Source of the DNA: Halichondria panicea
Taxonomy: Eukaryota > Porifera > Demospongiae > Suberitida > Halichondriidae
Assembly (NCBI RefSeq): GCF_963675165.1
Contig: NC_087383.1
Location: 4,122,979-4,186,978, forward strand
DNA: 64,000 nucleotides
Direction: 5' to 3'
The notes below the pieces were generated by a model, which saw only the letters and a program-made list of their open reading frames with translations, was not told where the DNA came from and did not search any database. Position 1 is the first letter of the stretch. Every line of letters begins with the position of its first letter. The position numbers and the translations under genes were made by a program. Positions 4,139 through 46,832 of the stretch are shown piece by piece.

Positions 4139-4879
4139 TGAACATTATTTTTTACTCGTTCAGGTTCAGGTTCAGAAATGTTGTGTTTGAGATCACATCA
4201 GGCAGATAGAGAAGGTGGAGCTGGTCCTCCAGGTGAGGGTGTGTGTGTGCGTACAGGTATAATTAAGTATGTAAAGTGTTTAAAGTTCACGAGCTGTACT
4301 GTCTTGTGTCAGGTATAGTGTTGGTATGCTTGTACGGTGTATGTAAGTACATGTGTTTACAAATACATGCATTCTTTGTCTTATAGCAGTTGAAGTGTTT
4401 CACTGCCCTCTCTTCTCCCCACACAGGACCTCCTTCAGCTGCAATACGAGGGCCTAGCAATCATGAAGATGTTTGAGACGGTCAAATTGAACGTTAATCT
4501 GCTCATTTTGCTTATGAACAAAAATCGCTAAGCGTTATATTGTATTTCCTGTATTCATGACAATTTTATGTACGTACAGTGCATGTACTCTCTGTGACAC
4601 TGTTTAAAAGCGAAACCATCATTATTGCTGTGCTATTGACCATTAATTTCTAACTTGATTTGTTTAGGTAGTGGTTAAGTAATGTGCCTATTTCTGTCTT
4701 CTGTGCACTAACCGTTCTCAAAGCATTTAAATTGTCATTGAATAATGTAGTACGTACAAAAGTAAATCATGCATGGTTGAGATTAAATAATAGTTAGACT
4801 ATAATTATACATGATTTAGCATTTAAATTATCATTGAATAATTATGGCAGAATAAAATCAAGTAAAATCATGGTTGATA

Positions 4880-7800: not shown

Positions 7801-8026
7801 GCTAACTCGGGTAGATCTGGTTCCTTTATTGCTGTATTGAGCTGCTCATCAGTCAGTTTCATTTCTGTCTTCAGATCGTCAATTGTGAGCTCTGAAAATA
7901 GATAAGCAAGCACACAAGGTTAGCAATCACCAATGAGGGTTTTAAGATGCTTTAGCAATCATTGGGTTTAACCTTTATAGTAAACATGACACTCTTTATA
8001 CCTTGGTTCTGCTCTTTAGTGGCCAT
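4880..8026 (-). CDS. NLR gene 1: DEATH-NACHT-LRR innate receptor
   Basis: Three exons on the minus strand: 8026-8002 (MATKEQNQ), 7891-7553, and 7389-4880 including the stop. Splice phases are 1 and 1, donors are GTATAA and GTGAGT, acceptors are TTTTCAG and CCCCAG. They sum to 2874 nt, 957 residues. Exon 2 codes a helical DEATH-fold domain (about residues 9-121). Exon 3 codes a NACHT NTPase with P-loop GAPGSGKST (about 228-235), Walker B LWVLDGWDE (about 300-308) and sensor IVTSRPSS, then about eight or nine ribonuclease-inhibitor-type leucine-rich repeats to the C-terminus. This architecture is that of sponge NLRs, cytosolic pattern-recognition ATPases. No frame breaks are seen. The start lies 166 bp from the start of the divergent methyltransferase gene, so a shared promoter is likely. 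Confidence 0.92.
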
Positions 8027-11669: not shown

Positions 11670-12435
11670 GCATGCACCAGCTTGGTATCACCTGCAGAGC
11701 TCAGTATAATTATTTATGGGCTTCTTCTGCATGGTATCACTGCATGTATATAGTATACTAACACGGTCGTCTAGATCAGTTCTACTATATAGACTGTGTA
11801 TTATAGTGCAGCAGTCGGTATTAATATCCTCCACGTCTATAATACTTACATTATAGGTATTTTGGTAGATCTAATAATTTCCTATAGTGTATGGATTTTG
11901 TGTAATTCTATAGATTCCTACACTGCACGGGAAATTTTGCACTATCTTTTGTTAAGTATATACGTTTGCAGGAAACACGAAATATATTTCTCAGGAAAGG
12001 TGCAGATTTTTAAGCCTGCATGCACTGTAGCAGGAAATGTAAGGCATGTCATTGTGCTTACATCACATGTCAGTATAATTATAGTCAAATTTGCTCAGTC
12101 ATAATTATATAACATCACATTTTTGATTGAAGTAAACATTATACAATCCCAAGTTTGATACTGTCAAGTCCATAATAATTATAAGATACGTTTGTGTCTC
12201 TACAATCCCTATATATACATGACTGTATGTGTGTTTTAGACTAGATTATCGTGAAAAGAGAAAGAAAACATGAAAATGTTGAATTAGTTATTTATGAAAG
12301 CTATATAATCTAATCTAAAGTTGACCTGTTACAAAGCTGTAGTGGGGAATTATCAGGCCCTTTAGTATATATCTATATAACACCTACAGACTAGCTAGTT
12401 GTGACAAAATAATTATATAGTAGTATACACAAGCA
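11670..12435. other. AT-rich stretch upstream of the membrane gene
   Basis: No gene, element or repeat is recognised. TATATA-rich DNA lies just 5' of the ATG at 12436 and may contain the promoter. Confidence 0.4.
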
Positions 12436-15400
12436 ATGGCTAGCCTACTTCTTTTTGCCGTCATTTTTAGCCTTTACTTTGGTCCCTCGTTCACCACTAA
12501 CAAAGACTGGAACTATCTGAATGTTCCTTGCAATGAAGGAAATGTATCCTTTGAAGCATTGAGAACTGTAACTAGCAAGACAGATATACACCTGGATCAC
12601 TGTACATTTAATCTGAGGTCCCTACTAAATATTTCAGACATAAACGACCTTCGTATTATTGGCAGTGGTGATGGAACAGTGATTAACTGTACAAGTGGCA
12701 ATGCTGGTCTATTGTTCACAAGGATTACTAACCTTTTGTTAGAGAGTTTGATTATACGCAATTGTGGAGTAAAAGTGCATGGTGATGATGGGTTGCAACT
12801 TGCTAGCGTTCAAATCGTGGAAGGTAAAAAAGTAACCATCATGAATGTGACTATAGAAAATGGTACAGGAACTGGTTTATCTCTTGTCAACATTAAGGGT
12901 GCTGTGATGGTTGAGAATTGCATATTTCGCCACAATCTATATTATGTAGATCGAATGTATCGTGCTGGGAATACTATATATAATGACTTTACCCAAAGAG
13001 GTGGAGGTATGCAAATAATTCTTGGAAGCCAAATTATTAAAAAACACTGCAATAGTACATATAGCATTCAAGGGTGCCAGTTTTTGTACAATTATGCTTC
13101 CAGTGGGGGAGGTCTATTTGTTATGATTTCTCATGCAAATAACAATTGTGTTATTATTGAAAATAGTACCTTTACTGAGAATAGATGCCAAAATGGTGGA
13201 GGCGGAGTACAGTTTGGCTATGCAGTTCCTCGTCATCGTTTCTCACAAAAAGTAAAAGCAAACTTAATTATATTCCAAAACTGTATGTTTAAAGGCAATG
13301 CAGCTGGGTATGGTGGAGGAGCATCAATATTCTCTTCTTTGCATTTGAAAAACATGATTAAGCTGGAAGATTGTTTATGGACTAGAAATACCGCCACTAA
13401 ACATGGAATGGCCCTTGATATTGCTACTGCTCCTTGGGAGACATATAATAGGGCTGATGATTTTCCTAATCTTACACCTACGTTCAGATGTTGTAGTTTT
13501 ACAAACCATACTCATTCTGCTTTTCTCAGCAGCCCGAAAAGTGTTTTCACCGTAACAAGATACCAGGTAACTTTTGAGGGGGAAATACTTTTTGAAAGAA
13601 ATAATGGTACTGCAATTGAGGCCACATCAGCTGAACTGAATTTTGCTAAACAATCAAATGTTAAATTTATTAACAATCAAGGAATCGACGGTGGGGCATT
13701 GAGATTGAAAGGAGTATCCATGATGATTGTTCAGAAGTATTCTACGATTTTGTTTTGGAAAAATAGGGCTGTGAAAAGTGGAGGTGCCATATACGTTGAT
13801 TCTTCTGACAGACTTTCTGAGCCTTTTTGTTTTATTAAGACCAAAAGCATCAAAAACCAAACTTTCTTCATATTCAAAGATAATACAGCAGGTTTTGAAA
13901 ATTCTCGACAAAGAGGTGACTCAATATATGCTTCATCTATTTTGCCCTGTCTTGAAAGATGTTCACATGATTTTCTATATAACGTGTCAGTGCCAGAAGC
14001 GTTAGAATGCATGGGTAACTTCGTATTTGAGGCAGTAAGTTCTAGACGACAGCTTATCTCTGCACCACATCATTTTTCAAGAATTGATTTAGCGAGTGAG
14101 CAAGATTCAATGTGTATGTTGTTTATGGTGAATGAAACAATTTACTCAAACCAGAATTACGTTGTGATGAATGTCGAGGACTGTATTGATATGCACGGAT
14201 GTTTGAAAGCCATACCTGGCAAAACTACCAAGATACCTCTTAAACTAGTGGATGAACTTTGTGGAGAAGTTATTTTTCATATATCAGTAGAAGTGTTGAA
14301 TTCAAACAATGGAAGTATATTTATTGATTCAACACACTCAATAATTACCAACAATTTTATCACAATATATGGAAATCCAAATGACTTCGGCACTTTACAG
14401 TTTTCTGCTCCTGGAGTATCTTGTGTCAAACTGTCTGTCAAATTAGATGATTGCCCCCCTGGTTATATACATGATAATATCAGTAAGAGTTGTGTGTGTT
14501 CTTCGGCTACACTATTAAGCTATGATGGAATTGAGAAGTGCAGCGAAACTAACTTCACAGCGTACGTACATCATGGGTATTGGTTGGGATACACCATTAA
14601 TAAGACTAAGACACAACAGGACCGCTTAGCTTCTGCGATATGCCCCAAAGGTTTTTGCATCACTACATTTTCCTCAGCTGAACACCCACTAACAAATGTA
14701 TCTTTGGACGATTTGAGCCCATACATATGTAACGAAAAAAGAAAAGGCATTATTTGTGGCAGTTGCAAAAAACATAACTCTGCATATTATCGCTCTTCTT
14801 CATTCTCATGCAAACCCAATAATTTGTGCTACCTGGGATGGTTATTCTACATTCTGTCCGAGATAATTCCGGTAACTGTTTTGTTCTTTATTGTCATTTA
14901 CTTCAACTTGTCATTCACATCTGGTGCCTTGAATGGTGTTATTTTCTTCATGCAAATAATAGATACTTTTAAAATCGATGGTGAAAACTTTATACAATTC
15001 ACTAAAGAAGTAAAACAACTGGCACGGATTCACAAGCTTGTTTATCGTGTATTTCTACTCAAATTTGTTGCTCTTGAAGAAGCTTCGTTTTGCCTTTGGG
15101 AAGGTGCTACTGCCCTTGACATGCTAGCGTTTAGGTATGTCACTATCGTGTACAGCTTGTTTCTAGTAATTGTTGCCGTCATCTTTCTAAAGAAATGTAC
15201 ATTCCGACTTCGCTGTTATCAGGTATCGAAACATTTAAAAAACGAACAGCTAAACTTGAAGCATTCCATACTTAATGGACTGTCAGCATTTCTGGTGATG
15301 AGTTACTCTGAATGCACACGAGTGTCTCTGATGATTCTAACTACTGGAACACTGACCGTTGGACCTACAACTAAACAAAAGTTTGAGCCTGTCGTCTTCT

Positions 15401-16131
15401 ATAATGGAGAGTATTCCTTCATGGGTAAAGAACATTTGAAGTATGCGTTGCCAGCCCTTTTCTTCCTTTTTACGATTGTAGTTGTACCTCCAATACTTTT
15501 GATTGTCTACCCACTGTGTTACAAACTGTTCGCTTTGCTGAGGATAAACGAATCAAAGTGTGTCCAAATTACATGTAAGGTCATTCCCTTAGAGAAAATC
15601 AAGCCGATGTTCGATTCCATTCAGGGTGCATTCAAGGACCAATACCGTTTCTTTGCTGGGCTGTATTTCGTTTATCGACTCGGTGCTTCTCTTACCTTTT
15701 CGTTCCCAAGTGCTTTGAAAACATATTACACTGCAACTGGTGCTCAGTTGATATTCATGTTGATGGTACATGCAGTGTGTTGTCCTTACCGACAAAAGTG
15801 GCACAACGTTTTGGATGCCCTCTTGTTCTCAATCCTAGCCATGATCAATGCAATATCGTTCTTCAATTATAAACGTAATCAATCGGATGTAACGTATTTA
15901 GCAGGAGTTCAATGCATACTAATTTTGCTTCCATTGGTATATTTGGTCATATATACCACATACAACATCTATTTGAAGATTAAGACTGCCATGGCCTCAT
16001 GCTCAAAAAGAAACGATACAGAAGACGAAGATCACGATTTAAATGGGATTTTAGATATAGTGGATGCAAGAATTATCGAACAAGAAGATGTTGGGGAAAC
16101 AAATGATTACATGTTACTGAAAGCGAAGTAG
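12436..16131 (+). CDS. Large beta-helix ectodomain protein with multi-pass membrane C-terminus
   Basis: One intronless frame of 1231 codons. Residues 1-20 are a signal peptide (MASLLLFAVIFSLYFG). Residues about 40-500 show the repeating pattern of a right-handed parallel beta helix: NxTF/CxF rungs, glycine-rich turns such as GGGLFV and GGGG, and many NxS/T sites. A cysteine-rich linker follows (about 690-800; CPKGFC, ICGSCKK). From about residue 800 to 1165 there are roughly eight or nine hydrophobic membrane segments. The last 60 residues are charged and cytosolic (DTEDEDHD). I infer a cell-surface receptor- or channel-like protein. Similar beta-helix/multi-pass proteins occur in many copies in sponge genomes as I recall, but no function is assigned. 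Two dead fragments of the same gene lie just upstream, so this is a multiplied family. Lack of introns could mean a retrocopy origin. Confidence 0.8.
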   Translation: MASLLLFAVIFSLYFGPSFTTNKDWNYLNVPCNEGNVSFEALRTVTSKTDIHLDHCTFNLRSLLNISDINDLRIIGSGDGTVINCTSGNAGLLFTRITNLLLESLIIRNCGVKVHGDDGLQLASVQIVEGKKVTIMNVTIENGTGTGLSLVNIKGAVMVENCIFRHNLYYVDRMYRAGNTIYNDFTQRGGGMQIILGSQIIKKHCNSTYSIQGCQFLYNYASSGGGLFVMISHANNNCVIIENSTFTENRCQNGGGGVQFGYAVPRHRFSQKVKANLIIFQNCMFKGNAAGYGGGASIFSSLHLKNMIKLEDCLWTRNTATKHGMALDIATAPWETYNRADDFPNLTPTFRCCSFTNHTHSAFLSSPKSVFTVTRYQVTFEGEILFERNNGTAIEATSAELNFAKQSNVKFINNQGIDGGALRLKGVSMMIVQKYSTILFWKNRAVKSGGAIYVDSSDRLSEPFCFIKTKSIKNQTFFIFKDNTAGFENSRQRGDSIYASSILPCLERCSHDFLYNVSVPEALECMGNFVFEAVSSRRQLISAPHHFSRIDLASEQDSMCMLFMVNETIYSNQNYVVMNVEDCIDMHGCLKAIPGKTTKIPLKLVDELCGEVIFHISVEVLNSNNGSIFIDSTHSIITNNFITIYGNPNDFGTLQFSAPGVSCVKLSVKLDDCPPGYIHDNISKSCVCSSATLLSYDGIEKCSETNFTAYVHHGYWLGYTINKTKTQQDRLASAICPKGFCITTFSSAEHPLTNVSLDDLSPYICNEKRKGIICGSCKKHNSAYYRSSSFSCKPNNLCYLGWLFYILSEIIPVTVLFFIVIYFNLSFTSGALNGVIFFMQIIDTFKIDGENFIQFTKEVKQLARIHKLVYRVFLLKFVALEEASFCLWEGATALDMLAFRYVTIVYSLFLVIVAVIFLKKCTFRLRCYQVSKHLKNEQLNLKHSILNGLSAFLVMSYSECTRVSLMILTTGTLTVGPTTKQKFEPVVFYNGEYSFMGKEHLKYALPALFFLFTIVVVPPILLIVYPLCYKLFALLRINESKCVQITCKVIPLEKIKPMFDSIQGAFKDQYRFFAGLYFVYRLGASLTFSFPSALKTYYTATGAQLIFMLMVHAVCCPYRQKWHNVLDALLFSILAMINAISFFNYKRNQSDVTYLAGVQCILILLPLVYLVIYTTYNIYLKIKTAMASCSKRNDTEDEDHDLNGILDIVDARIIEQEDVGETNDYMLLKAK

Positions 16132-18214: not shown

Positions 18215-19670
18215 GTAAGTCTCCTTTTTTTTAGCTCATCCATACATGCATTGTTGAGGTTTTATACCAAATGCTTATTGTGTGTTGTCTTTGCAGTGGA
18301 CAACTTTGATGGTGGAATCAGCTTCTCGTTCTCGCTGCCTTTCCGTACCATTTCCTGTTCCGGACTACTCCTCTACTCCCACATCGCTCTCGAACTACTC
18401 AATGGAACAGTGAGTCCACATGCAGTCATTTCAGCATATATTATAGTAGCTTAGGTGTTGACCTCAAATTAAAGTTAGACTAAGTCTAGTCTGCAAAAAG
18501 AACAATAAAAAATCGCTGCATTACGCTTTTTCTTTTACTAGCTATTTAATTTCGTGTGTGTATTATTATAGGTGCAGTTTGTGTTTGACAATGGTCCCAT
18601 GGAGGCGGTGGTGGAGTACACGCCCCTAGCCCTGCCCACCTGTGTGATAACGAGTGGCATACCCTCTGTGCTGAGAAGGATGGTGTGAGAGGTGTGCTAA
18701 TCGTGGACGAGGGGGACCCTGTCAGTGTCTCCGCCTGCTCCCCCCACCCCAGCTTCAGGGCCGTTAACATCAACGACCCCCTCTATGTTGGGGGTATGGC
18801 TGGTGAGGGCTCATTGATTGCCACTACTGTCATTGTATACTTAAAAAAACGAATGTTTATTGCACAATTAATATGAAGAGCTATAATTATCTGTTATAAT
18901 AATTACAATAGCTATTTAAACCATTTGCTGTATCATTTGCGGACAAAAAAATCAGCATATCAATTTTGTGAACAGGAAAAATTATCACAATTAAAAAAAA
19001 GTATTACATCTATCTACAATCAAGCTGTGTATGTACCAGTCTCTGCCAACTATCTCCAAACTACCCTAGACTGTCTCAGATTTAGTTCTATCACCCCTGT
19101 CCCAAAAAGAAACTTGCTATTCACCTCATATATCCCTGATTTTCAACCTTGCTGCTCTTGAGCGGGTTTATTAAGCTCCAATAAAGCTTGGGCAAGCCTT
19201 AAAGGCTTCAACTACTGCTAAATAATAGTAAATCCTGAGCAGAATCAGCTTTGAACAAGAAAAGTTCTAGAAAACTAATAGATTATGAATGACAGTCCAA
19301 CAAGTGGGCGGGGCTCACTTACTAGACACACTATAACTACTAGTGCAGCCACATCCAGAACTGTGCAGTGATGCTACTGCATGCTGGTCTATCTGGGACA
19401 CCACAGTACTCACATCTTCCATGTAGGAAAACTTGTATTCATTGTTGTTTTTGCACTGAAAATCAGATTCACGCTATTAATTGTTGTCTCAGAGTCTGCA
19501 TGGGCTTAAATTATTGTGAATAAATGTGCCTCCTTCAATGGCAGCAGGGCTGTAACAGGCCCATATTTTTTTTCCTAAATCGGGAAGTTGGCACCAGTCC
19601 TATGCATTCTTTTAGACATTACTAACTTTCATGCTTTAGAAGTCCAAAGGCTGCTTGTAGTATCCACATC

Positions 19671-19706
<36 letters not shown>
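19671..19706. repeat. (TTA)n microsatellite
   Basis: About twelve perfect TTA units upstream of the LINE tail. Confidence 0.95.
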
Positions 19707-19709
<3 letters not shown>

Positions 19710-19844
19710 TTTCAGTAAGTGCTGAACAAAAATGAATAAAGAACTGAGTATACTAGTAAGGAATAGAGCACACTGCCAGTCTTTGACTTCTTAAAAGTCT
19801 AGCTGGAGTACGTACTATACTACAAATAAGGATTTTTAATTAAA

Positions 19845-20195
19845 TTAAATAATACAATTGAAGCAAGGGCAAATCACATGATAAGTACATAGTTTGTCTG
19901 GGTCAAAATTTGTATTGAAATAATCCCAGACGAAATTGAAGAGGAGTCTCTCTATTCTCCGGTACGGCATTTCCAGATCCAGGCTTGGCATTGCATTCCA
20001 AAGGCATACTACTCTATTGAAGTAATAGTGTCGTGTTTTGTTCAATCTGGTGAAATTGTGTGACAGTTTTAGGTTGCTACCGAGCCTGGTTGATGTAGTG
20101 ACAAAGTGAACATGGTCGCGTATGTTGAAATTATCTTGGGGCTGCTTTAGGTGTTTGACTAGGAACATGATATCCCCAGCTCCAGCCAGTGAGAG
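19845..20195 (-). mobile_element. Non-LTR retrotransposon (LINE) ORF2 3' end, truncated
   Basis: The minus-strand frame 20168-19845 reads FNIRDHVHFVTTSTR, YYFNRVVCLWNAMPSLDLEM and DKLCTYHVICPCFNC. This is the typical C-terminus of CR1/L2-like LINE reverse-transcriptase proteins (fixed pattern FNRVVxLWNxLP, then a CTYHxxCPCxxC end). The rest of the element is missing. It is 5'-truncated as usual for LINEs. Confidence 0.85.
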
Positions 20196-20440
20196 TTTTA
20201 TTAGCCCTAGGGCTTGAGGGCTTCTAAGTCATGTAGAAACTAAACAGTGTCTAAGAATTTTATATCATAGTGTCTAGATGGATTTGCTCCTAGCCATGAA
20301 TTGTTATCTAATCTTTGCTACATGATTGTAAGTGTTTCTCTATAAGTGAAGTACATGCATGATTGTCTAGTACACAATTTTCTAAATTGGATAGAACACT
20401 TCCTCTAACTAATCAAATTGCACTATTTATGGCTATATAA
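20195..20440. repeat. Dispersed repeat, relative at about 43215-43470
   Basis: Shares AAACAGTGTCTAAG, ATCATAG, TAATCTTTGCTA and GGATAGAACACTTCCT in the same order with 43215-43470. The type is not known. Confidence 0.7.
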
Positions 20441-20505
20441 GAACATGCTCTAACATTACATAGATAGTTTGTCTTCTAAACCTAATAGTATATAGATCTG
20501 CAACA

Positions 20506-23029
20506 ATGTCCCTACTTCCATCTATAGGTGAAATATCTCAACAGCACAAACGTCGAAAATTACAGACCTCATCCCTTCTCTCTTCTTACGAATCACTGGC
20601 TTCAATCGACCTCAACACATGGAGCACACTCAATAAGTTGAGCAGAGAAGTGAAAGAATCTTGGTTGGTAGCTAAGTTTGGGTTTGTACTTGTGAATGAG
20701 GTGTGCCTTTTACTGCGTTCTATCTCTGGCAAATGTTACTGATTCCGAAAAAAAAAATATCTTGTGTAACTGTGACCTCTCTCTACCTGGTGTCCAACAG
20801 GAAAGTATAGAAATGGTGGCTGAATTTGTCGATAACCACTGCCCACACCTTGTACGATTTACTCCGAATAACTACCCTCCATTGTTGACTCCACCCACAA
20901 ACACCTGTTTTGACTGTGACCGACCATTGGTGTCTAATCATTCTTGCCATGTGAGTTTTTTATTGGCTAAACTATTATTTTTATCCTAAACAATATTTTC
21001 AGATAAAGTGTTACTCTCTGAATGGTTTTGTCAGAGGAAGAAAGTGTACGCTAAGGTGTAAAGCTTGCAACATAACTTATAACTATGCTCACTTTGGAAA
21101 CAAGTCTGAGAATGGATTCCGTATGTACCCCCAAACTCAAACATATGTTGAAGTGTCTGACACCGTTTATTTTTCAAGGGATTTGTTGGAGTGGCAGTGT
21201 AGCCTTGCGTAAGTGAACAATGTTTAGTACTTATAGCAAAACTGTTTCATGAATAAATAATGTCCATCTCAACATAATTATTTGTCCTGTAGTAATCACT
21301 CTTGGGTTTCCTTTCAAGGGTTTGCTGAAAGTTACAATACTGCTTTAGAGATACCACCAGATGAAGGTATAAATAGAGAAGCAAATAATTTATGTCTATA
21401 GATAAATAATGGTGTTCAAGTACAGAGCTTAGTCCCTATATTGTTGGGGAAGCCTTCTATAATGGAGAAGTGGAGAATGAGTTGAGACGAGTCAATAAGA
21501 TCGACTATCGTTTCCATAAAGACAGTGAGAGAGAGGAGTGTATGGAAAGGATTGAAGAAGTAAGGCGGCAATCTATATACCACCACAAAGAAGACACGTG
21601 TACTGCTGAATGCAAGAAAAGAGGTAATTATAGTGCATGACTGTATAATTATTATTGAACCCAATAGGTTGTGGTCAACTGTGGGTTACAGATGGAATTT
21701 GGAAGACTGTTTTCCCACACTGCATGTTCAAAGTTGAGGTGATGGATGGCAACTTATTCATTTCCACAAACATTATAGTTACATTGTAATTTGTAATTTC
21801 AAAACCTTTGCAGCAAATCAGTGATGGAATTCCAGCTCTCAATTTACCTGATGTGTGTACAAACTCCCCAATTCGCAATAAGGCGTTTTGCGAGGAACAC
21901 TGTCTTTTGCTACAGAATGAAGCTCCTGATGTACCTATTGATCTGAGACAGTTTCTCAAATATTGTGGTGCTCAAGCAGTTGGTAATTTAAGATACAGTG
22001 GTACAATTATTTACTTACACGATTTAATTAGAAAATGAAGAGGAGTGTGAGGGTGACACTGATACTGTTGATGCAGTTGTGAACTCTATTAAAGTCAATA
22101 CAAACCAATTTGGAACATCTGCTACCACCTCACAAGGTATGTAATTATGTAGAATTCTCTATTACTTTTATTGAACTTTATCCTAGGTACTGCAGCTTTA
22201 ATTGAGAAGCATCCTGAACTAGTACGAAGTACTGTGTATGATGACCCTAATGAACGAGTTTGCAGGAAAGATACGGGTAAATCCAAACGGTTGAGGAAGT
22301 GGTCTAGAGGGCACCAATTTGTCATCAGAGGGGGTGGTCATATTGACACTTGGCAACCATTGTACAGGTACACGCCATGCATTCACATGACCCTTTTTTC
22401 CTGCATGTATACATTTTAGCATAATAGCTACATTATACTGAACTGTAATAGCTAGTGCCTATAATTATAAGTACTAACCCTCCACTGTTGACATGAATAG
22501 AAACTATGCATGTATAAAACAAATGCACTCTATATATAATTTATATATACCTATATATAGGTCTGAATCGCCATCACAAGTTTTCTTAATTTTGATTCAA
22601 TGGCTGCTGTCTCTAGCTAAGTCTCGTGGTGGTATTGGGAAGCCTATCTCATTGGCCTATGACAACATGTGCAATTTAGCAAAGCTGAAGGCTGCTCGTG
22701 CTCCTCTACCATTTACTCCGCCATTGGACCGTTTGTGGCTTGATGTCAACAAAATCATCGATGTGTTTCATTTTCAAAACCATGTGTCTCCAGATTGTAA
22801 ATTAAAGTTTTCTCCTGCTGAACTGAAGAGCGAGAATCCTGACTTCAATACACAGGCTGGGGAGCAGACATTTGTTTGGGTACATCGGTTTAGTCACATT
22901 CTGTGCTCAATGAACAAGGTTCACCACCTTTTTTATCTCCACCGAATGGTGTTAAGGCGAAACGAGTATACCAGCAAGTGCTATGCTAGAGGAAAAAAGC
23001 CAATTCTCCCAAAAGGAACTGCAAAGTAA
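20506..23029 (+). CDS. KDZ (Kyakuja-Dileera-Zisupton) type transposase
   Basis: Ten exons with matching phases: 20506-20700, 20801-20950, 21003-21208, 21293-21366, 21426-21623, 21668-21738, 21814-21982, 22032-22136, 22187-22367, 22561-23029. They sum to 1818 nt, 605 residues, with no stop. An N-terminal zinc cluster (CFDCDRPL...SCH, KCTLRCKACNITYNY) looks like the CxC cysteine cluster of KDZ proteins. The core has DGIWK (first D, exon 6), AYDNMCNL (second D, exon 10) and NTQAGEQTFVW (E), followed by FYLHRMVLRRN, which are the KDZ RNase-H-fold signatures. KDZ proteins cut and paste DNA. It is shorter than many KDZ transposases. A donor-like GTAACT overlaps the stop, and a KHLQCEKLLGLARGT frame lies at 23150-23275, so a further exon is possible. 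It sits in the laminin-G intron, 0.9 kb before the ATPase/PHD gene on the same strand. Confidence 0.82.
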
Positions 23030-23967
23030 CTGTTTTAGAAGTAAATTGTTTTGCATTGCTTATACATGTGAATGTGTTGAGATATACATGCAGTCACCTA
23101 ATTAGCAATTACTATCACTTTACTTTATATGATACCTATATACGACTAGAAAAACATTTGCAATGTGAAAAATTGCTAGGATTGGCCAGGGGAACCACAA
23201 AAAAGCGTGGAAACAAGAAATCCGACGAGAGCATAACTCCAATCCTTTACAACGTCAATCACATGTACTGGTAGTTTTCCCATGTTTTCCCAGCCAATAT
23301 GCCACGCAATTTTTACTCAGTGGTGTGATGACCAATCCCTATATATTTATTATACATCCATTTTGGAATGTGCGGGCATATAATCATGATGATTTGTGAT
23401 GAATTGATGTTCCTAATACATGCAGTGTTGAGCACAGGTACACACAGTCCATGCGTAGTAACATGCACGGACCGTACTGGTGACCTGCATGGAATGATTT
23501 GGTGGATGTTCAATGCGCATTGAGTGTCTAGTGTGGACAGGCCTTTAGTCAGTCAGACAACGAGCGGTGAAACGTCGAAATAGTGCAATTTTTAAAATGG
23601 CAATATTCATACGTTCATGGATTATGAAATGAGAGATACAAAGAGAGAAAAGGCTAAATAAACTATCTGTCCATTCAGTTTTGATGTGGCCTTTCCCTGC
23701 AGAGATAAAACAGTTTGAACATGAGTCAAAATAAGTGAAATATTGCTAAACACGGGCAAACCCACTGCCAATCCTATGTAAAACCTACTGATCTAAGTTG
23801 ATTGTAAATATTGGCTGTATTAAATATTGAAGTGGTGGGTGTAGATATGTTTGAGAAGGGCGGAGTTTACGACTCATGTGCATGACCGCTGTGCGCAGCA
23901 TCTAAAACAGTGTCTCTCTAGCACACTAGTACTGCAAGCTGCTTGTGCACATAGATCGATCAATTCA
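23030..23967. other. Spacer between KDZ gene and ATPase/PHD gene
   Basis: A possible extra transposase exon (KHLQCEKLLGLARGTTKKRG, about 23150-23275) lacks a phase-compatible donor. The next gene's first exon is open upstream to at least 23851, but without an ATG before 23968. Nothing else is recognised. Confidence 0.4.
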
Positions 23968-26900
23968 ATGAGGCTAGTGCAGGAAAACCACAGCATTGGC
24001 TACTGGAAAGAAAAGAGTGGTCCTGCCAGAAAATTCTATAAGCTTACAAATTTCAGTTTGAGGCTATTGAAGCATGTCCGAGCACCAGAGGAGCTACCAC
24101 ATTTTTCTGGATTTGTAGTGGAAGTGACCCAAAAGCAGAGGTACCGTGGTGAAGTAAACGAAAGTTCAAGCGATATCTCAAAAGGGTAACGAATGCATGC
24201 ATGCATTTTTGCTTATTCAGTTATTTATTGTATAATACAGGTTGGCATTCATACCATGGTACAAGATACCCAACACAGAACAACTTCTGCAATATCTCAG
24301 TCCTGCTATTCCGTCAGGGGCATTATCTTCACAACTCTCACTCTCTCAAACAAAGTCATTATTGATGCAGCTGTGTCAAGAGTTTTTTGAGTAAGCTATA
24401 TTTTTTAGTGTAAGGAATCCATGCAATGACTATAAGTATTATAATTATACCTGTGATGATTTTACTGCTACATCTAGACACTAGTTGATAGTATTTATAT
24501 ACATGGGAAGTATACGTACATGCATGGGAAAAGCGCCTCAGAGCAGGTATATATACTATGGGACTTATAGTATATACGTATGTATATACCTGCAATTTAC
24601 TTATAGTACACCTATATATATAGTAATCCTTTGTCAAGTAATATAATTATAAAGTCAAGCCTTGAGGGCAAGGTTTGCACATGCATGCATGCGCACTATA
24701 GTATCTAGACACTTGCACTCACTGTTTTGTCACTGTCCATGTGATTTAGAAGCCCTTAGCCACTTGTAGTATACCCTCGCTATTAGTTGTACTATATTTT
24801 GGCATGTGACTTTCATTGTTTGTGCAATTTGCTATAGCCATTGGATCACTTTCCACATGTCTTGTTACTATACATGCTGTGTCATTCCCCCATTGTGTTT
24901 TGCAATCCATTCACTACAAGTACCTGTATTTGGATATGTTATGTTCTATCTTCAGTGTGCATGAATTTACAAATTCATATAATTATACATGCACAATATA
25001 CTTTTCAATATACCTTTCAATTGTGCACTCTTATTAAGTCTCCCGTACCCCCTTATATAATTATACCTATTATGTGTTTAGGTGATTTCTCTCTTGGATG
25101 CTAATAAATTAAGTAGCTACTACTGTACAGCCATTTTTACCATGAGATAGTTCTTAACTTTCTAATAGCTAATATACAAAAAACAAATCGAACTATAATA
25201 ATGAGTAATCGAAATACTGTATATTAAGTAACATTGAAGGCCATTACCTATAAGGATTACAAACACATACATTATGATTAATATGCATGCATGCACATGA
25301 ATTATAGGAATGAAGACAGTGATGCAGATGAGGATGACACAGAGCCATCACGATACCACCCTGTATCTTGCACTGGGCTTCAACCTGATTCTAAAGTGTT
25401 TGTATTTGGACCTGAGTTCCAAATTGAGGAGGATGGTGCAGTAATTTCTCAAGAGAACAGCAGTACATTTGGATTGATGCCATCCTTCAGAAATTGCAGC
25501 GGACCGTGAACTCTCTACCACCAATTCCAAATCCTACTCTTCAGCACCTACATACGATTGTCCGAGGAATGCACAGCATCTCTGGAGACAATGTTTTCAG
25601 TGGATTGTTCCTTTTAGGCAAGTTCTGATCAGCTAAGTGCATGCATGCATTACATGATCCAATTTGCTGAAAGCATATAATTATACTACTACCTTTTCAA
25701 CTGTAAGTAATTAAACCAGTACGAATTGAGTGTTATAGCAATACTTTTCTGCCCTTAATAAAAGGTTGGAAATACTTTATATACATAATAATACCTTAAT
25801 TATATAGCAACATTTTCTAGGCACTTATATTTCATGGAATGGCCTCTAAAAACATTTCTTTGCACAATGTTTGAATGCCGCTTACCTGAAGCCACGCTTT
25901 AATCTTTGCAAGTTATAGCTAATAATTTTTGTGGATTTAACTTTTGTAGGATTGCTAACCCACGAAATCAGCAACAATTATATATAAGCCCTTCGAAAAT
26001 GTTGCGCTATACGGGAAGGAGGGGATTGTTCAGTGTATCATAATGCATGATTATAGTGCTAACTATACTGCATGGATGCATTTGCAGCATCTTCCGTGCA
26101 TAATTATGACTATATAATTATATATAGGTGCAGGAATTATGTCAATGCACTATGAGGCCATCATAGCACGATGTGGATCTATTGGTATGGCAATAGCTAC
26201 TAGCGCAATCAGCAGAGGCAAGACCAATTGCGCAAAGCTTGCTATTGCGATGTGTGGAAACTATCCCAAAGGATGCGCAGGCTATCTCACTGATAGTATG
26301 GCAAGGGGTCACTTGAGTGGCAGTCTTCCATTTCTGTACGATGATCCCAGCAGCGATACTGTCTTGAAGCCCCTCCTCATGAATTCATTTGGTGGGACAG
26401 AAATAGGTACTAAGAAGGCACAGTTTTCTGCCAGGTGTTCTCCCATCGTCACGTGCAATGAGTTCGTTATGGAAAAATTGGCTCAAGCAGATGATCGGTT
26501 AGTACATGCGGACATGGTGGGAGGATCCCATATTTTATACAGGAGGTTCCAATGTATATAAATAATTATACATAATTATACATTTGCATAATAATATTAT
26601 AGTGATTACATGCAATTATATAGGTACATGGCCAGAGCAATTTTGGTGCCATTTGTGTTTGAAGCTCCTCCAATGAGAGTGGACACCCTTGATACCATTC
26701 TAGCAGAAGCTCATAGGGCACTGCCGGAGGCAATATCCATTGGCTACTGGTTGAAGAATCTACCCCAAAACCTACTCTATGAAACGGTAGAGAAAGTACA
26801 GGAATCTGTTGAAGGGAAGATGGACGGCAGGCTGGCGATGCAGTATGCTCTATATCTACTGTGTGCAAAAGAGGTATAATTATTATGTATAATAGTGACT

Positions 26901-29900
26901 TACAATAATGCTTGCTTTCATACTTAATTGTTCACTCAATTGTAGATTTCTGATAGGGCTGGGTGCAGTGAGGTGACATCTGATCACATTTGGGATCACT
27001 TTCAGAGTGCGATAGTACCGGCTATTTGCAATTGGCAAATTGGAGAGAGTGACACAAATGAAAAAGCTGAGAGCAACAACTTGGGAAAACTCTTGCACAA
27101 AGGTCTTCAAAAGGCCCTAATTTCTGACGAGCATATGTCCGAGGTGCGTGCATGCATGTGTGCACATTTGACATACTGCATATTATATATAATATATAGT
27201 CCTGCTATTTGTGCAGTTTCTGAACTGTGTCACCCCAAATGTGAATTACCACCTGAAAAACACAAAGGACATGGTTCAAGGAGCAGCCATTCGACTCCAG
27301 GTTTTCTTAAATTACCTAGACAGCCATGGAATTCCTCATGCTTCGCACAAAGTCATTCGAAGGAAGACAAAGAAATGCAAAAGATGTGCTCCCAGAAAGC
27401 GCCAGTATTTCCTTCGAAAGGATGTGGTAGTCTGCTCAAGGAAAATAAGGAGAGAGTTAGCAGAATGCAAAGGGTGCATCTGTATACCCAGAGATCAGCT
27501 AAAGGAAGGATTTATCGAAGCCTTTAAGCACAGTAAGCCCGATTATTGGTAAATTACATCTTGCGCATGCATGCATATAAAATATTATAGTCTGTCAGAC
27601 GTGCATGCATAGGTATACCAATTTATTCTAGTGTTCCATGCATGCATGACTGTGAATATGGCTGATCAATTTGCATACATATATATAGAATCTTCAAGAA
27701 GCTCTACCGACAAACATAACAATTCAGAGGGTTCAAGGGATCAACTAGATGACTCAGGTATATTATATTATACCATCATGCAACTAGTTGGAGCATGCAA
27801 GACTATACCAACCCACAATCTTGTTTTCGAACTTTTTGTTACTTCAGTGCGCATGCTCTTCCAACCCTACTCTTCCCCATTTTTTCACAAAATGTTTTTT
27901 GCACTTGTTTGTACCCTTTTTACTGCATGCATGTATTATACAGTTGTGTCATGCACGTCATTATAAGGAGATGTTCATTGTATATAATCATAGGCATCCA
28001 CATTGAAGACGAATTTACGGATGACACACAGTTATCAGGTTAATAATGATGCATGCAATAATTATATGCTTGCATGTAAAGTATTACTATAATTGCAGGT
28101 GAACCACTAGAACACAATATTGATTATAAAGAACAACAGCCTTGGTTCTTTTATGAAGGTTTGTATTATATTGCAGGTCAAAATTATAATTAGCACGCAT
28201 GCATGCATGCATGCAGATCTCAGTGACAATGAATTTTATTCTCTCCTTGGTGAGCACTACCTCGAAGAGCTTGAGGACCAGTTGGATCCTACGTCTCATC
28301 ATGAGCAACAAGAAGAGCCAGCTCCTCCAAAGAAGAAGACAACACTAAAAATAGGTATATACTTATAGTATTATTATTACTGTATAATATGAAGAACATA
28401 ATTATTATAGGAACTCCGAAGGAATTTGAAGTGCAGTCTACCCCCCAACAAAGACTAACAATATCATCAGCCAATCCATTAGGTATGTCAGTATACTGTA
28501 GTGATATTGAGGTGCAAAATTTCCTTTTTCGAAGGCAAGGCAGTTAATGAGAAAGTTAAAACGGGCCATGGACGCACCGGTATATATACACATGCTAAGC
28601 TAGCTATTGGTAATTGTGGTTTCCTATGACTATTCAGAACACCCAAACATTTCTGCTGAGGGCTCTGCATGTAATTTATATATAATTATATATACCCACA
28701 AATACGATTATTTTAATTATATAAAATTATGTCATATTTTATATACATGGATGCAGTGCTATGTCATTATCCTCTCACACCTGTCCGTCTCCATCGACTA
28801 GGAGTTACACCACCAAGACAGAGGCAATTAGGTATGGTGTATATATTATACATTATAGCTAATTTTTGCTGTTTTTGTGGGCCCCGTAGACTGGCCGTAG
28901 TATAGTTTGCCGCCTTGACTATCTGCTATTATAACTTGCAAAACATATATTATTATTAATGGGGCTGGAGGTGATTCTGATAAGCATGCCGGAGTTAATA
29001 ATTACTCCTGATGATTCAAAGAAATAATGCCCTGCACATACTTTTATCCTGCACTCTCAGTGCAAAAGAAGCGTCCTGTTTCGGTATCACTGACAAAATT
29101 GTATGAAAGAATTGGAGTAAGTCCTGCCAGATTGAGTGGCCATGCACGCAGAAAAGCAACATCTACTACAGTTGTGGTAAGAAGGAACCTGTTAACAGAA
29201 TTGGCCAAAGTGAAGTTGGGCGTTAAAAAAGGTAGCTATAAATATATAATAAATAACATGCATGATGCACTTAAAAACATTGTGCAAATTGTATTCAGAC
29301 AACAGTAAATGTCTCGCTGAATTCAAAGCAACTGGCAAGCAAAGTAAGATGCATGTCAAGTGCCTGCATGTATTGTGCATGTATTATACTATGTTTTTTA
29401 TATATGCTATAGGCTTTAAAGTTATCATAATTATATACTCACATGCAGACAAATCAAATTATGCTGCCAAGAACAGAAGCAAAACCAAAATTGCTAGTAA
29501 ACCACGATCGCCTGCAAATACCAGAAGTAAAACAAAACCTGCTAGTCAACCACAATCTGCCAAGATATTGTCTACCAATGGTGCCAAAAGAAAAAAGAAC
29601 TGTGCTAATAAACCGCAAGGCAAATCTGCTGTACAAGTTGCAATTGTAGGAGGTAATTAGATAATTATTATGTGCTGACAAACAATAATTATATATAGTG
29701 CATGCATGGCATGTAGTGATATAATGTAATTATATTGACTCGGGCAATGCATATAAGTGTATATGATAAATGCAAGTGGCACTTATTTCCATGTATATGT
29801 TTTGATTGTGCAGAAGACAAGGAGCAATGCCCTAAGTATGTATGCGTATACAAAAGAGTGCCTCGTGCTTCAACCATGATTGCTTGTCACACATGTGACC

Positions 29901-29983
29901 AATGGTTCCACATCAAGTGCGTATCGTTATCACAAAAAGAAGCTGGGAAGATAGCACAGTGGCATTGCAGCAAATGCATGTAG
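23968..29983 (+). CDS. P-loop ATPase-like protein with C-terminal PHD finger, KDZ neighbour
   Basis: Seventeen exons inferred: 23968-24140, 24241-24390, 25308-25617, 26128-26545, 26624-26873, 26946-27143, 27217-27532, 27689-27757, 27994-28038, 28099-28158, 28217-28354, 28411-28482, 28802-28831, 29061-29231, 29299-29343, 29449-29652, 29814-29983. Phases agree throughout except for one missing base in exon 3 (near 25470); corrected, it codes about 939 residues. Exon 4 has an SF3/AAA-like core: degenerate P-loop ISRGKT (first glycine replaced by serine), Walker B LPFLYDDP, and sensor PIVTCNE. Exon 7 carries CxxC pairs (KCKRCAPRK, CKGC). Exons 8-16 are small, all multiples of three and all phase 1, coding acidic then lysine-rich tails. 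Exon 17 is a PHD finger (CHTCDQWFHIKC...WHCSKC). Exon 3 ends in a GC donor (GCAAGT). The family is not firmly known. I infer a nuclear chromatin-linked ATPase, perhaps a transposon partner protein. The start is uncertain. Confidence 0.7.
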
Positions 29984-30334
29984 CTAATACTTAATTTTGC
30001 CTGCATGAACTCAATCTATAATAACAGTTATTGTATCTATTATTTAGGTATATAATAATATTATAGTGTTTTGTGTGCTAGTATAGCATGTTGTTTTATG
30101 TATTATGTATATACAATCGAAATGAATGATATCTTGATACCATTGTGATAATAAGTTTTATGGGGGAAGGGTGGTTTTTATGTAGTTACATGCATGCATG
30201 CATGGCTATAATTATGGGGGGAAGGGGTTGTCTATATAATTATAATACCAGTGCATGTTATCATGAACATAATTATACATAATTATTATGCATGGCCGAG
30301 GGCCCTGTGAGGTGCATGCATCATGGGGTTGCCA

Positions 30335-31440
30335 ATAAAAGTCTGTCAATATATAGTATAAACTAAATTTGTGATCATTCTGTCAATTGTGAACGCTTAT
30401 ATCAAACGTATATACTATATTATATAATTATATAGTATAAACTAAAATTTAATTTGTGCATGATCATTCTGTCAATTGTGAACGCTTATATATCAAACAT
30501 ATAATTATACTATATATATAGTATAAACTAAATTTGTGTGATCATTCTGTCAATTGTGAACGCTTATATCAAACGTATATACTATAGTATAAACTATATA
30601 TATAATTATATAGTATAAACTAAATGTGTGAACATTCTGTCAATTGTGAACGCTTATATCAAACGTATATATATATATAGTATATATATAGTATAAACTA
30701 AATTTGTGTGATCATTCTGTCAATTGTGAACGCTTATATCAAACGTATATATAGTATATATATAGTATAAACTAAATTTGTGTGATCATTCTGTCAATTG
30801 TACGCTTATATCAAAAGTATATATAGTATATATATAGTATAAACTAAATTTGTGTGATCATTCTGTCAATTGTACGCTTATATCAAAAGTATATACTATA
30901 GTATAAACTATATATATAATTATATAGTATAAACTAAATGTGTGATCATTCTGTCAATTGTGAACGCTTATATCAAACGTATATATATATATAGTATAAA
31001 CTAAATTTGTGTGATCATTCTGTCAATTGTGAACGCTTATATCAAACGTATATATAGTATATATATAGTATAAACTAAATTTGTGTGATCATTCTGTCAA
31101 TTGTGAACGCTTATATCAAACGTATATACTATATAGTATAAACTATATATATAATTATATAGTATAAACTAAATGTGTGATCATTCTGTCAATTGTGAAC
31201 GCTTATATCAAACGTATATATATATATAGTATATATATAGTATAAACTAAATTTGTGTGATCATTCTGTCAATTGTGAACGCTTATATCAAACGTATATA
31301 TATAGTATATATATATAGTATAAACTAAATGTGTGAACATTCTGTCAATTGGGAACGCTTATATATCAAACGTATACCTTACATGATTCCACAAATAGAA
31401 ACTAATTAATTTTGTGAACATTCTGTTAATTGTGAACGCA
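30335..31440. repeat. Minisatellite, 14 units of about 65-95 bp
   Basis: A conserved core (CATTCTGTCAATTG...AACGCTTATATCAAACGTATA) occurs 14 times, at about 30376, 30466, 30544, 30633, 30712, 30788, 30859, 30948, 31017, 31090, 31186, 31262, 31339 and 31408. Spacers are TATATAGTATAAACTA-type dyads of variable length. It lies in the laminin-G intron just 3' of the ATPase/PHD gene. Confidence 0.95.
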
Positions 31441-31444
31441 TAAT

Positions 31445-31786
31445 AATAAAGGAAAAATGTTGAATTTTCTACATAATATTACTTTCATGCAATAGAGATC
31501 TATATATGCATGTATTTATCATACACATAATGACATAATGATATAAATACGCTATATAGATATACACTATACATGTCTATCAGTTTGCATAATACCACTA
31601 TATATAGGCTATAGAGAATTGGAGACAACTCAAGTTCAGGTAGATTCTTCACCAGTCCTGATAGCAGTAGATCTATATCATGATTGTGATAGTGTGATAG
31701 TATCACAATTTATGCCCCACCAAAAAACCGTCCACAAATCAAACAGTGTATCATTTAAACGTTGATGTGTTTCTTTCTTTCTGCAG
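31445..31786. other. End of the 13-kb laminin-G intron
   Basis: Nothing recognised except the polypyrimidine tract and CTGCAG acceptor before 31787. Confidence 0.5.
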
Positions 31787-32144
31787 CTACTGTTCGTAGA
31801 CGTTTCACATCTCAAGCTCCCTCGTTCCAAGGTTGTATTGCAAACCTCTACCTGAGTCAAGGGGAGGAGGTCCCAGCTAGGAGACTGCTGCTGGCTCAGG
31901 CAGTGGAGGGGAACAATGTGGACCATAACATTTGTAGCCTGTAATCTCAGACTGAAACTTTGTATAAACTATAATTATAGCGGGTAAATTTCATGGCGTA
32001 AAAATTTTTTACCTTGAATGTGTGAGTATATATCCACACCTGCATGTCCACCATTAATGCTTATTCATTAACGACCTTTTTTGGGGAGTAATATAATGGT
32101 TGTGTAATGTGCCAACATAATATAAATTAAAATCATGGTCGAGG

Positions 32145-33420
32145 TTAGAATGCAAGCACAACAATCTCAGGCAGTCTACTTCTCTTCCTATCTTTCTTAG
32201 CGTCCCTGATTACTGTTTCGATACAGGATCTTAGGTGGTCGGGTATGTACAATAGTGTCAGTTCAGAGCAGTGGGTGGTTAGATGTCTGGCAAGGGTCTT
32301 CATTCCATCTTCTGTTATTGAGTGATTACCATCAATGTACAGTATTGTAATATTGTTGATCAGTCCAGTTGATAGCTCCTCGTTACTCTGATCAGTCAGT
32401 TTACAGTCATCCAAGTTCAGAGTCTTATAGACTGCAAGTCCAGCAGCAATGTGACGACAGCTAGTCACTGTGTTACCAGACAAAAAAAGATGTTCGAGGG
32501 AATTGTTTGTATTCAGAAGTTGATAGAGGGAAGCTCCATTGTCGTCTGATATTGTTAGTGAGCAACTGTGCAGGTCTAGGTTCTTTAATAATGTTTTAGT
32601 TGACAAGGCCTCACAGAGTGTCTAAGTCCACTGTTACCAACACAGATATTGAACTAGTACTGTTCCTTGATCACCTCAGCGATGTGGTGTGTCCCTTCTT
32701 CATGAATATCATTATTAGATAGATAAAGACTAATCTCGGAGTGAGAGTTGGGACTCTTGGAGAGTCCTCGGGCCAGAAATTTGCAGCCTTGGTCACCAAT
32801 AGAGCAACTTCCGAGGCTAAATGTGAATCCATTACTGGTGTTGGAACAAACTGATGCAAAATATGGTTCAGCGGCAGGACCCTCTCTCGGGAGGAGGGAC
32901 ACGAGGTGGTGGAGTCTGAGGAAACAAAACAATAGGTGAGTACTATTCCTAGTGATAGTACTATGTTAAAATAATAGATAATTGTATGTGTGTAACAAAA
33001 GCGACAGTTTCTTATGTTGCAATCACTCCCACAACGTATGGTACCACAATGACCACACTCTCACATATGACAGACTCACATTTGTCAGACAAGCATACTT
33101 GCACACTTGAACAGCAACGTCTCCTTTGAGCAGGGAGAGTAAGATGAGTAGCAGAGCTTGGAAGGTGGCTTGTAGTTGGTTCTTGTTCTGCCAGTATTCT
33201 AGGGCAAGTTTCATTCCGGCTTGAATGCGGTTTAGACGTGTTTTAGCCTTCACTTCGCTTACGTCAGTTTTCTGTCCAGGTGACAGCTCCAGCTTTTCAA
33301 GATAGTCATCAGTGTTATCGAAACATGCGGCTAACTCAGGTAGATCTGGTTCCTGTATTGCTGTATTGAGCTGCTCATCAGTCAGTTTCATTTCTGTCTT
33401 CACATTGTCAACTGTGAGCT
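32145..33420 (-). pseudogene. NLR pseudogene with NACHT deleted
   Basis: The DEATH exon is 33420-33080 with a 2-bp insertion near its 3' end (after CKY). Exon 3 starts at 32915 but jumps after about 15 codons, near 32873, from the N-terminal linker straight to the first LRR (YFASVCSNTSNGF), so the whole NACHT domain (about 1.6 kb) is gone. Further breaks occur near 32640. The remaining LRRs (32606-32145) are closest to NLR gene 3 (NTNNSLE type). Exon 1 is absent: the intron sequence is cut at about 33449 by the segment bounded by inverted repeats. Confidence 0.9.
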
Positions 33421-33460
33421 CTGAAAATAGATAGCAAGCACACAAGGTTAATTGCATGCC

Positions 33461-33525
33461 AGTCTCATGAATTAGCCGCCCTTCCTAAGTGAGAGACCTA
33501 GGAAGGGCGGCTAATTTGTGAGACT
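33461..33525. mobile_element. 65-bp hairpin MITE
   Basis: AGTCTCATGAATTAGCCGCC is mirrored by GGCGGCTAATTTGTGAGACT. The loop is about 25 bp. A relative with a nested insertion is at 35128-35266. Confidence 0.75.
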
Positions 33526-46600: not shown

Positions 46601-46832
46601 CATGCTGCTAACTCAGGTAGATCTGGTTCCTTTATTGCTGTATTGAGCTGCTCATCAGTCAGTTTCATTTCTGTCTTCAGATCGTCAATTGTGAGCTCTG
46701 AAAATAGATAAGCAAGCACACAAGGTTAGCAATCACCAATGAGGGTTTTAAGATGCTTTAGCAATCATTGGGTTTATCCTTTATAGTAAACATGACACTT
46801 TTTATACCTTGGTTCTGCTCTTTAGTGGCCAT
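43683..46832 (-). pseudogene. NLR copy 2: near-identical to NLR1 but frameshifted
   Basis: Same exon plan: 46832-46808, 46697-46359, 46193-43683. DEATH, NACHT and LRR sequences are nearly those of gene 1 at 4880-8026. Two changes break the frame: one G lost in a G run near 45761 (after the P-loop, at RLRDP), and TA inserted near 45365 (at ENPVV). The net length is one base off a multiple of three, so the frame is not restored. The P-loop GAPGSGKST and Walker B motif remain readable in different frames. It may be a pseudogene; the single-G loss alone could be a sequence error, but the 2-bp insertion is less easily explained so. Confidence 0.85.

Follow-up and report, generated by a model that had tools for sequence, protein, structure and literature searches.

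Does the gene that follows a transposase belong to the same mobile element, and if so, what could its product contribute to transposition? This question is raised by a 64-kb stretch of the Halichondria panicea genome (C7:4122979-4186978, hereafter the window; positions without a contig name refer to it), in which a KDZ transposase gene is followed on the same strand by a gene for an ATPase-like protein with a PHD finger. The usual picture of a eukaryotic cut-and-paste transposon is that of a transposase aided by host factors. An initial annotation of the locus envisaged a paired mobile or domesticated system, the pairing being drawn from position. We searched the genome (131 Mb in 39 contigs) and found that the two genes are carried by a KDZ-type DNA transposon, which encodes a transposase of apparent DDE type, bearing a CxC5 domain, and a companion protein in which a DUF927-like AAA+/helicase-type motor is joined to a PHD finger at the C-terminus. 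Published work is cited below by PubMed Central identifier, from excerpts of the papers.

The transposase gene (20506-23029, + strand) consists of ten GT-AG exons, located at 20506-20700, 20801-20950, 21003-21208, 21293-21366, 21426-21623, 21668-21738, 21814-21982, 22032-22136, 22187-22367 and 22561-23029. The exons join into an open frame of 605 amino acids, as initially annotated. The protein contains a CxC5 domain (PF18718, 'cysteine cluster associated with KDZ transposases'; E value 2.4e-15, 57.2 bits with a Pfam cut-off of 26.9). The KDZ catalytic domain PF18758 gave no direct Pfam match in this protein. Another KDZ locus (L032) matches both PF18758 (E value 3.2e-5) and a profile of the group A-C transposases described below (1.7e-12), and this links the window protein to PF18758. 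The Asp of the YDNMC motif and the Glu of (G/A)EQTF are invariant across the three groups. The first Asp (DGIWK) is present in the window protein at a position that is not aligned across the groups, and the DDE assignment is by motif.

Genome searches with both window proteins returned at least 125 KDZ and at least 61 ATPase exon matches among the best candidates scored. Near copies of the window KDZ gene are found at six further loci and, together with the window copy, form group A. In alignments to the window sequence, the end points of all seven copies coincide, within two bases, at 18922 and 31752, which defines a unit of 12,831 bp on the + strand. The shared inverted ends expected by the initial annotation were thus recovered by comparing copies, but further out than the estimated 20.2 and 30.3 kb. 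The left terminal inverted repeat (18922-18944, +) pairs imperfectly with the right one (31730-31752, -) at 16 of 23 positions, a score equalled in 1 of 100,000 shuffles (1e-5). Comparison of the flanks revealed that the window copy is bordered by an 8-bp target-site duplication, ATTTAAAC, which is identical in 8 of 8 positions on the left (18914-18921) and on the right (31753-31760). Perfect 8-bp duplications also border L007 (CGATTCCA), L008 (GGTTGATT), L009 (TCATCTGT) and L010 (ATGCTATC), that is, they are present in five of the seven copies; a chance 8-bp match has a probability of about 2e-5, assuming 62% A+T. No duplication was found at the flanks of L011 or of the sister copy at 9.05 Mb on C1.

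This sister copy and the window share 99.4% identity in the left 7.7 kb and 97.7% in the right 4.2 kb. It and the window copy are the group A members that have both genes between the shared ends, and the only ones that keep the whole companion gene. In the window copy the two genes are enclosed by the duplications; hence, at least in this insertion event, the pair was mobilized jointly. A nested insert at 19674-20187 (-), whose reading frame by eye resembles the C-terminus of a LINE (long interspersed nuclear element) protein, is present in these two copies and absent from the other five, and thus probably entered before the two separated. An Rfam scan of 18500-32200 gave no match. Three of the remaining copies (L007-L009) have one common internal deletion, joining window position 23792 to 28595, by which the motor has been removed and the PHD exons retained; each also has a 2-bp gap in KDZ exon 5. 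As their three 8-bp duplications differ, the motor-less derivative has itself moved, with the proteins required presumably being supplied in trans. Taken together, 18922-31752 is almost certainly a two-gene mobile unit. Because both genes lie within one unit that is delimited by inverted ends and flanked by an 8-bp duplication, we regard the system as mobile and not as domesticated: the first half of the initial proposal stands, and a domesticated gene pair is ruled out by the multicopy state and the target-site duplications.

We compared group A to two further subfamilies, groups B and C, whose KDZ proteins share 65% and 49% identity with the window protein over the C-terminal 183 amino acids, and whose motors share 30% and 25%. 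In both subfamilies the ATPase gene adjoins the KDZ gene in divergent orientation, indicating that the pairing outlives rearrangement. The ends of group B elements, examined at six of the nine group B loci obtained from exon matches, are related to those of group A: the left end lies at the same point in five of six loci (L012 being short by 11 bases), the right end in all six, and the inverted ends are again imperfect (18/21). With respect to these ends, groups A and B have the KDZ gene in opposite directions and the ATPase gene in the same direction. Perfect 8-bp duplications were found at two of the six loci. One of them is L019 (CAATCGAT), a copy that has no motor match. L013 has both genes between its ends, but its duplication, ATGCATGC, is repeat-like and a common motif here, which makes it weaker evidence. 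No duplications were found at L014, L015 and L016, and a search for the ends of group C elements did not find them. Tandem arrays lie towards the ATPase-side end in group A (30349-31439, +, units of about 74 bp) and in group B (L019 5462-6427, 102-bp units). These subterminal arrays are possibly transposase binding sites.

We next consider how regularly the two genes occur together. All 125 KDZ and 61 ATPase matches were clustered into loci, and loci within 10 kb were counted as neighbours. An ATPase locus lies near a KDZ locus in 19 of 20 cases (expected by chance at about 0.4% per locus), and a KDZ locus near an ATPase locus in 18 of 24; the ATPase locus on C12 has no KDZ gene. The pairing that had been drawn from position is thus a recurrent genomic arrangement. 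Common descent of the copies, and the close spacing of some of them on C1, mean that the 20 ATPase loci are not independent events. A stronger point than the counts is that the pair is kept in three diverged subfamilies and in two gene arrangements. The initial annotation had named, as findings that would speak against its proposal, KDZ copies elsewhere that never lie beside the ATPase/PHD gene, or that gene being a single-copy conserved host gene in other sponges; in this genome adjacency is frequent and the gene is multicopy, which rules out a single-copy host gene. Chance neighbours are ruled out by the adjacency statistics and by the shared ends and duplications.

The companion gene (23968-29983, +) has 17 exons, as proposed initially, with a GC donor following 25617, the end of exon 3. 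Its splice phases agree almost throughout, the exception being a 1-bp frameshift inside exon 3 (25451-25456, +), where the C1 sister copy has one base more. An intron or a programmed shift at 25.45 kb was considered as well; the extra base in the sister copy makes a mutation or a sequencing error the simpler explanation. Exons 3-5 (25308-26873, +) encode the DUF927-like ATPase core, with a beta region, a Walker B motif (DDP) and a sensor Asn. The motifs quoted in the initial annotation are all present, the P-loop SAISRGKT (26202-26225, +) being one that lacks its first glycine; this glycine is present in the two other subfamilies (GEVNRGKT, GNVSLGKT).

The last exon (29814-29983, +) encodes the PHD finger, which was identified by Pfam above the cut-off (E value 1.3e-6). 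The fingers of groups A, B and C score 28.8, 31.4 and 28.2 bits, respectively, with a cut-off of 24. The solved fingers closest to that of group A are those of CFP1, PHF2, Spp1, TAF3 and BPTF, and the closest ones for group B and group C are BPTF, and TAF3 and ING proteins, respectively. The CFP1, PHF2, Spp1, TAF3, BPTF and ING fingers read methylation of histone H3 lysine 4 (H3K4). Judged by these relatives, the companion PHD finger is a predicted reader of H3K4 methylation, an assignment that we regard as probable.

The ancestry of the motor is less apparent from direct searches. Used alone as a query against Pfam, NCBIfam and PDB sequences, it gave no match of weight. The DUF927 family (PF06048) does not match the window gene, and a scan of the genome for it yielded nothing above the cut-off; the best relative, L042, reaches 21.3 bits versus a cut-off of 22.6. 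As the curated cut-off is not reached, we refer to the motor as DUF927-like only. A distant motor relative on C12 (L027), which has the canonical P-loop GESGTGKST, matches a Gloeothece plasmid protein with an E value of 2e-6 and 97% coverage. The Gloeothece protein is annotated as a bifunctional DNA primase/polymerase, contains a Prim-Pol domain and a weak DUF927 match, and has a relative on a Nostoc plasmid. The Gloeothece protein is also matched, at 57 bits in the P-loop region, by a profile built solely from the KDZ companions of groups A, B and C, with L027 excluded. In the reverse search, started from the Gloeothece domain, KDZ companions from each of the three subfamilies were recovered (E values of 5.7e-6 at best in group B, 3.9e-4 in group C and 0.0056 for the window exon); the best match in this search (9e-9) is a non-KDZ locus, C1:5241755. 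The P-loop Lys, the DDP motif, the Asn and an Arg are invariant in five aligned motor sequences.

An AlphaFold model of L042, a non-KDZ relative on C1, is weak (predicted local distance difference test, pLDDT, 46), and an earlier structure model was poorer (pLDDT 37). The best Foldseek match of the L042 model is the SCCmec helicase Cch (5dgk; E value 7.8e-4, TM 0.30, root mean square deviation 16), closely followed by poxvirus E5 and proteasome ATPases, so that this fold match is only a hint. A PHROGs search gave weak primase-like matches only, PADLOC gave no match, and scans of viral contigs and of genome contigs with narrow peptide patterns confirmed no relative. According to published work, Cch contains DUF927, primases of mobile elements can be fused to DUF927 domains, and a staphylococcal DUF927 protein is a true helicase (PMC5862659, PMC7581432, PMC10061031). 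By sequence, the companion motor very likely descends from a DUF927-like helicase.

Comparison of copies also points to purifying selection. The ratio of non-synonymous to synonymous substitution rates (dN/dS) for the KDZ gene is 0.27-0.46 against the six other copies. The companion gives 0.46 in comparison with the C1 copy; for L007-L009, compared over 220 codons of its last exons, the range is 0.14-0.43. Codons with gaps and stop codons (of which there is one, in L009) were excluded, and L010 gives no ratio (37 codons with no synonymous and one other change). With 1-14 changes per class, these values are supportive only.

A PHD finger accompanies a second KDZ family in this genome. We fetched four other KDZ loci (L029-L032). 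In L031, a PHD finger on the opposite strand (E value 7e-9) directly follows an open reading frame with a weak Ulp1-protease match (0.043, below the cut-off); from their position, the two are inferred to form one gene. Copies of this family (L031 2780-10410, with L037; L033/L035; L034/L036) are 7.6-9.7 kb long, with 89-bp terminal inverted repeats and perfect 7-bp duplications in three of three copies compared, out of four listed loci. Their PHD finger is closest to those of BPTF and PHF2. Neither a motor match nor a PHD finger matching that of the window was found in the 10-kb regions at L029, L030 and L032. By sequence comparison, KDZ elements here apparently carry PHD-bearing companions with two unrelated partner domains, and such companions apparently arose at least twice among the KDZ transposons of this genome.

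The listed KDZ loci are not the only places with DUF927-like motors: further ones lie at L027, at L042, and in a family matched at seven places (L040 3400-4254, L041, C10:5845045, C7:119333, C2:7741140, C7:2260115 and C2:976395). L040 has an intact P-loop, and its motor lies beside a divergent open reading frame of unassigned family, with no PHD finger visible by eye; a similar-looking reading frame is found at L027. The two copies compared, L040 and L041, yielded no target-site duplications. At L042, the ATPase exon (2753-3613, -) lies beside a reading frame of 384 amino acids (4329-5480, +) without Pfam match. This spread of the motor beyond KDZ loci resembles the sharing of TET/JBP genes among fungal transposon groups (PMC12730594).

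What, then, is the companion for? On balance, we favor the explanation that it is a chromatin-docking motor, which together with the transposase directs the transposition complex to accessible chromatin. The transposase would bind the ends, and probably the subterminal repeats as well, and would cut and join DNA. The companion would dock through its PHD finger on H3K4-methylated nucleosomes, and its ATPase ring would open or prepare the DNA at the docking site, bringing the complex to accessible chromatin. One protein would thereby combine the chromatin reading of the RAG2 PHD finger with the role of TnsC and MuB as ATPase target adaptors, and it could serve motor-less derivatives in trans. 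That the companion acts in target choice, rather than at another step, is a tentative assignment. It is rather doubtful, if conceivable, that a DDE transposase is here combined with a dedicated, H3K4-methylation-reading AAA+ helicase, so that motor-driven target choice and histone reading reside in one transposon-borne protein.

Several observations weigh against this explanation. All the evidence comes from one genome. Six of the 24 KDZ loci have no companion match, five of the 19 adjacent ATPase loci (on C11, C10, C4 and C6, and at 12.32 Mb on C1) match only the C-terminal exons or a fragment, and C1:15661872, in group C, was counted via the KDZ gene of a neighboring group B element. The motor is kept in two of seven group A copies, and four of the five copies with perfect duplications (L007-L010) are without it, the window copy being the sole exception; the motor is thus not needed in cis. 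The first glycine of the P-loop is missing from both full group A copies. Neither of these copies has both genes intact, given the frameshift in the window companion and the gaps of the C1 copy, which has an 18-bp gap in exon 5 and a 2-bp gap in exon 7 of the companion, in addition to a 1-bp gap in KDZ exon 10. Finally, a phage protein matched by L027 receives no support from the KDZ-companion profile.

We rank the rival explanations in the order of a replication helper, an anti-silencing helper and a passenger. The companion could be a replicative helicase that unwinds the ends or copies an excised form, with its PHD finger only holding on to chromatin. The nearest named relative of the motor occurs as part of a plasmid-borne fusion with a primase-polymerase, DUF927 proteins have been described as helicases for the replication of mobile elements (PMC5862659, PMC7581432), and Cch is the best fold match. 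But this match derives from a model of low confidence, ordinary 8-bp duplications require no replication, and Pfam scans, which covered the two window proteins only, detected no primase or polymerase domain, leaving a replicative role unlikely. It is improbable that the companion instead binds active marks on the chromatin of the element, displaces repressors and keeps the element transcribed. For such a role a helicase motor would be an unusual tool, even if a PHD finger also follows the Ulp1-like match in the second KDZ family, and the TET/JBP genes of fungal KDZ elements have been proposed to counteract silencing (PMC12730594). A captured gene without any role in movement would account for the loss of the motor from most group A copies with target-site duplications, for the broken companion gene in the window and for DUF927-like genes at other multicopy loci without a listed KDZ gene nearby. 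It would not account for a pairing kept over three subfamilies, at 25-30% motor identity and in two gene arrangements, nor for the signs of purifying selection, small as the counts are, and we consider it quite improbable.

We compared the element to known two-protein systems. It shares with the Zisupton/KDZ transposons of fish, fungi, algae and nematodes a KDZ-type transposase, many exons, a cysteine cluster and terminal inverted repeats, and with Zisupton the 8-bp duplications (PMC12730594). KDZ transposons, 8-bp duplications and accessory genes are thus already known (PMC12730594, PMC12477816, PMC9297572). The accessory genes described in these excerpts differ from our companion: they encode TET/JBP dioxygenases, proposed to help fungal KDZ and other transposons to escape silencing (PMC12730594), or are left unnamed, as in giant elements (PMC12477816). 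The window transposase is also short, with 605 amino acids, compared with KDZ transposases of up to 1400 (PMC9297572). A helicase-PHD companion of a KDZ transposase is not mentioned among the listed matches of our literature search, outside of which lay Repbase and the original KDZ description. The L031/L033/L034 family likewise has a PHD-bearing companion, but it differs from the window element in having a weak Ulp1-like protease match in place of the motor, and in its inverted repeats and 7-bp duplications.

A DDE transposase with a separate PHD-bearing partner protein is also found in RAG1/RAG2 and ProtoRAG-like pairs. Their transposase belongs to a different superfamily, and RAG2, a beta-propeller protein, is not known to have a motor. 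The RAG2 PHD finger binds trimethylated H3K4, and RAG/ProtoRAG elements differ further by 5-bp duplications and convergent gene order (PMC9885083). General Pfam scans of the window proteins turned up no RAG-type domains, no RAG model having been run by itself. The two-gene arrangement of a DDE transposase and an AAA+ ATPase recalls TnsB/TnsC of Tn7 and MuA/MuB of Mu, by analogy only: the motor described here is related to a plasmid primase-helicase, and the bacterial pairs are not known to have a PHD finger. With DUF927 helicases (SCCmec Cch, SaPI Rep and primase-polymerase fusions) the companion shares the motor region, Walker A and B motifs, the sensor Asn, the arginine and a mobile-element setting. 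It differs from them in scoring below the Pfam threshold, in being an intron-rich eukaryotic gene, in the PHD finger that follows the motor and in lacking a primase match. By analogy, the proposed mechanism may have its closest working parallels in RAG2 and in TnsC and MuB, the ATPase partners of the bacterial systems.

The transposon is flanked on both sides by repeated genes that resemble NACHT-LRR receptors by eye (4880-7919, 32145-33484, 43683-46725 and 53388-56228 (-)). Upstream of the insertion, a single-exon open reading frame of 1235 amino acids (12424-16131, +) looks, by eye, like a beta-helix-like, multi-pass membrane protein.

Our findings suggest that this transposon brings along its own chromatin-aware helper. 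If so, chromatin-targeted integration would become directly testable with an element that carries both a helicase-type motor and a histone reader, and the system could supply new parts for targeted DNA insertion tools. It would represent an independent parallel to RAG1/RAG2, and a case in which a plasmid-type replication helicase has been recruited into eukaryotic transposons.

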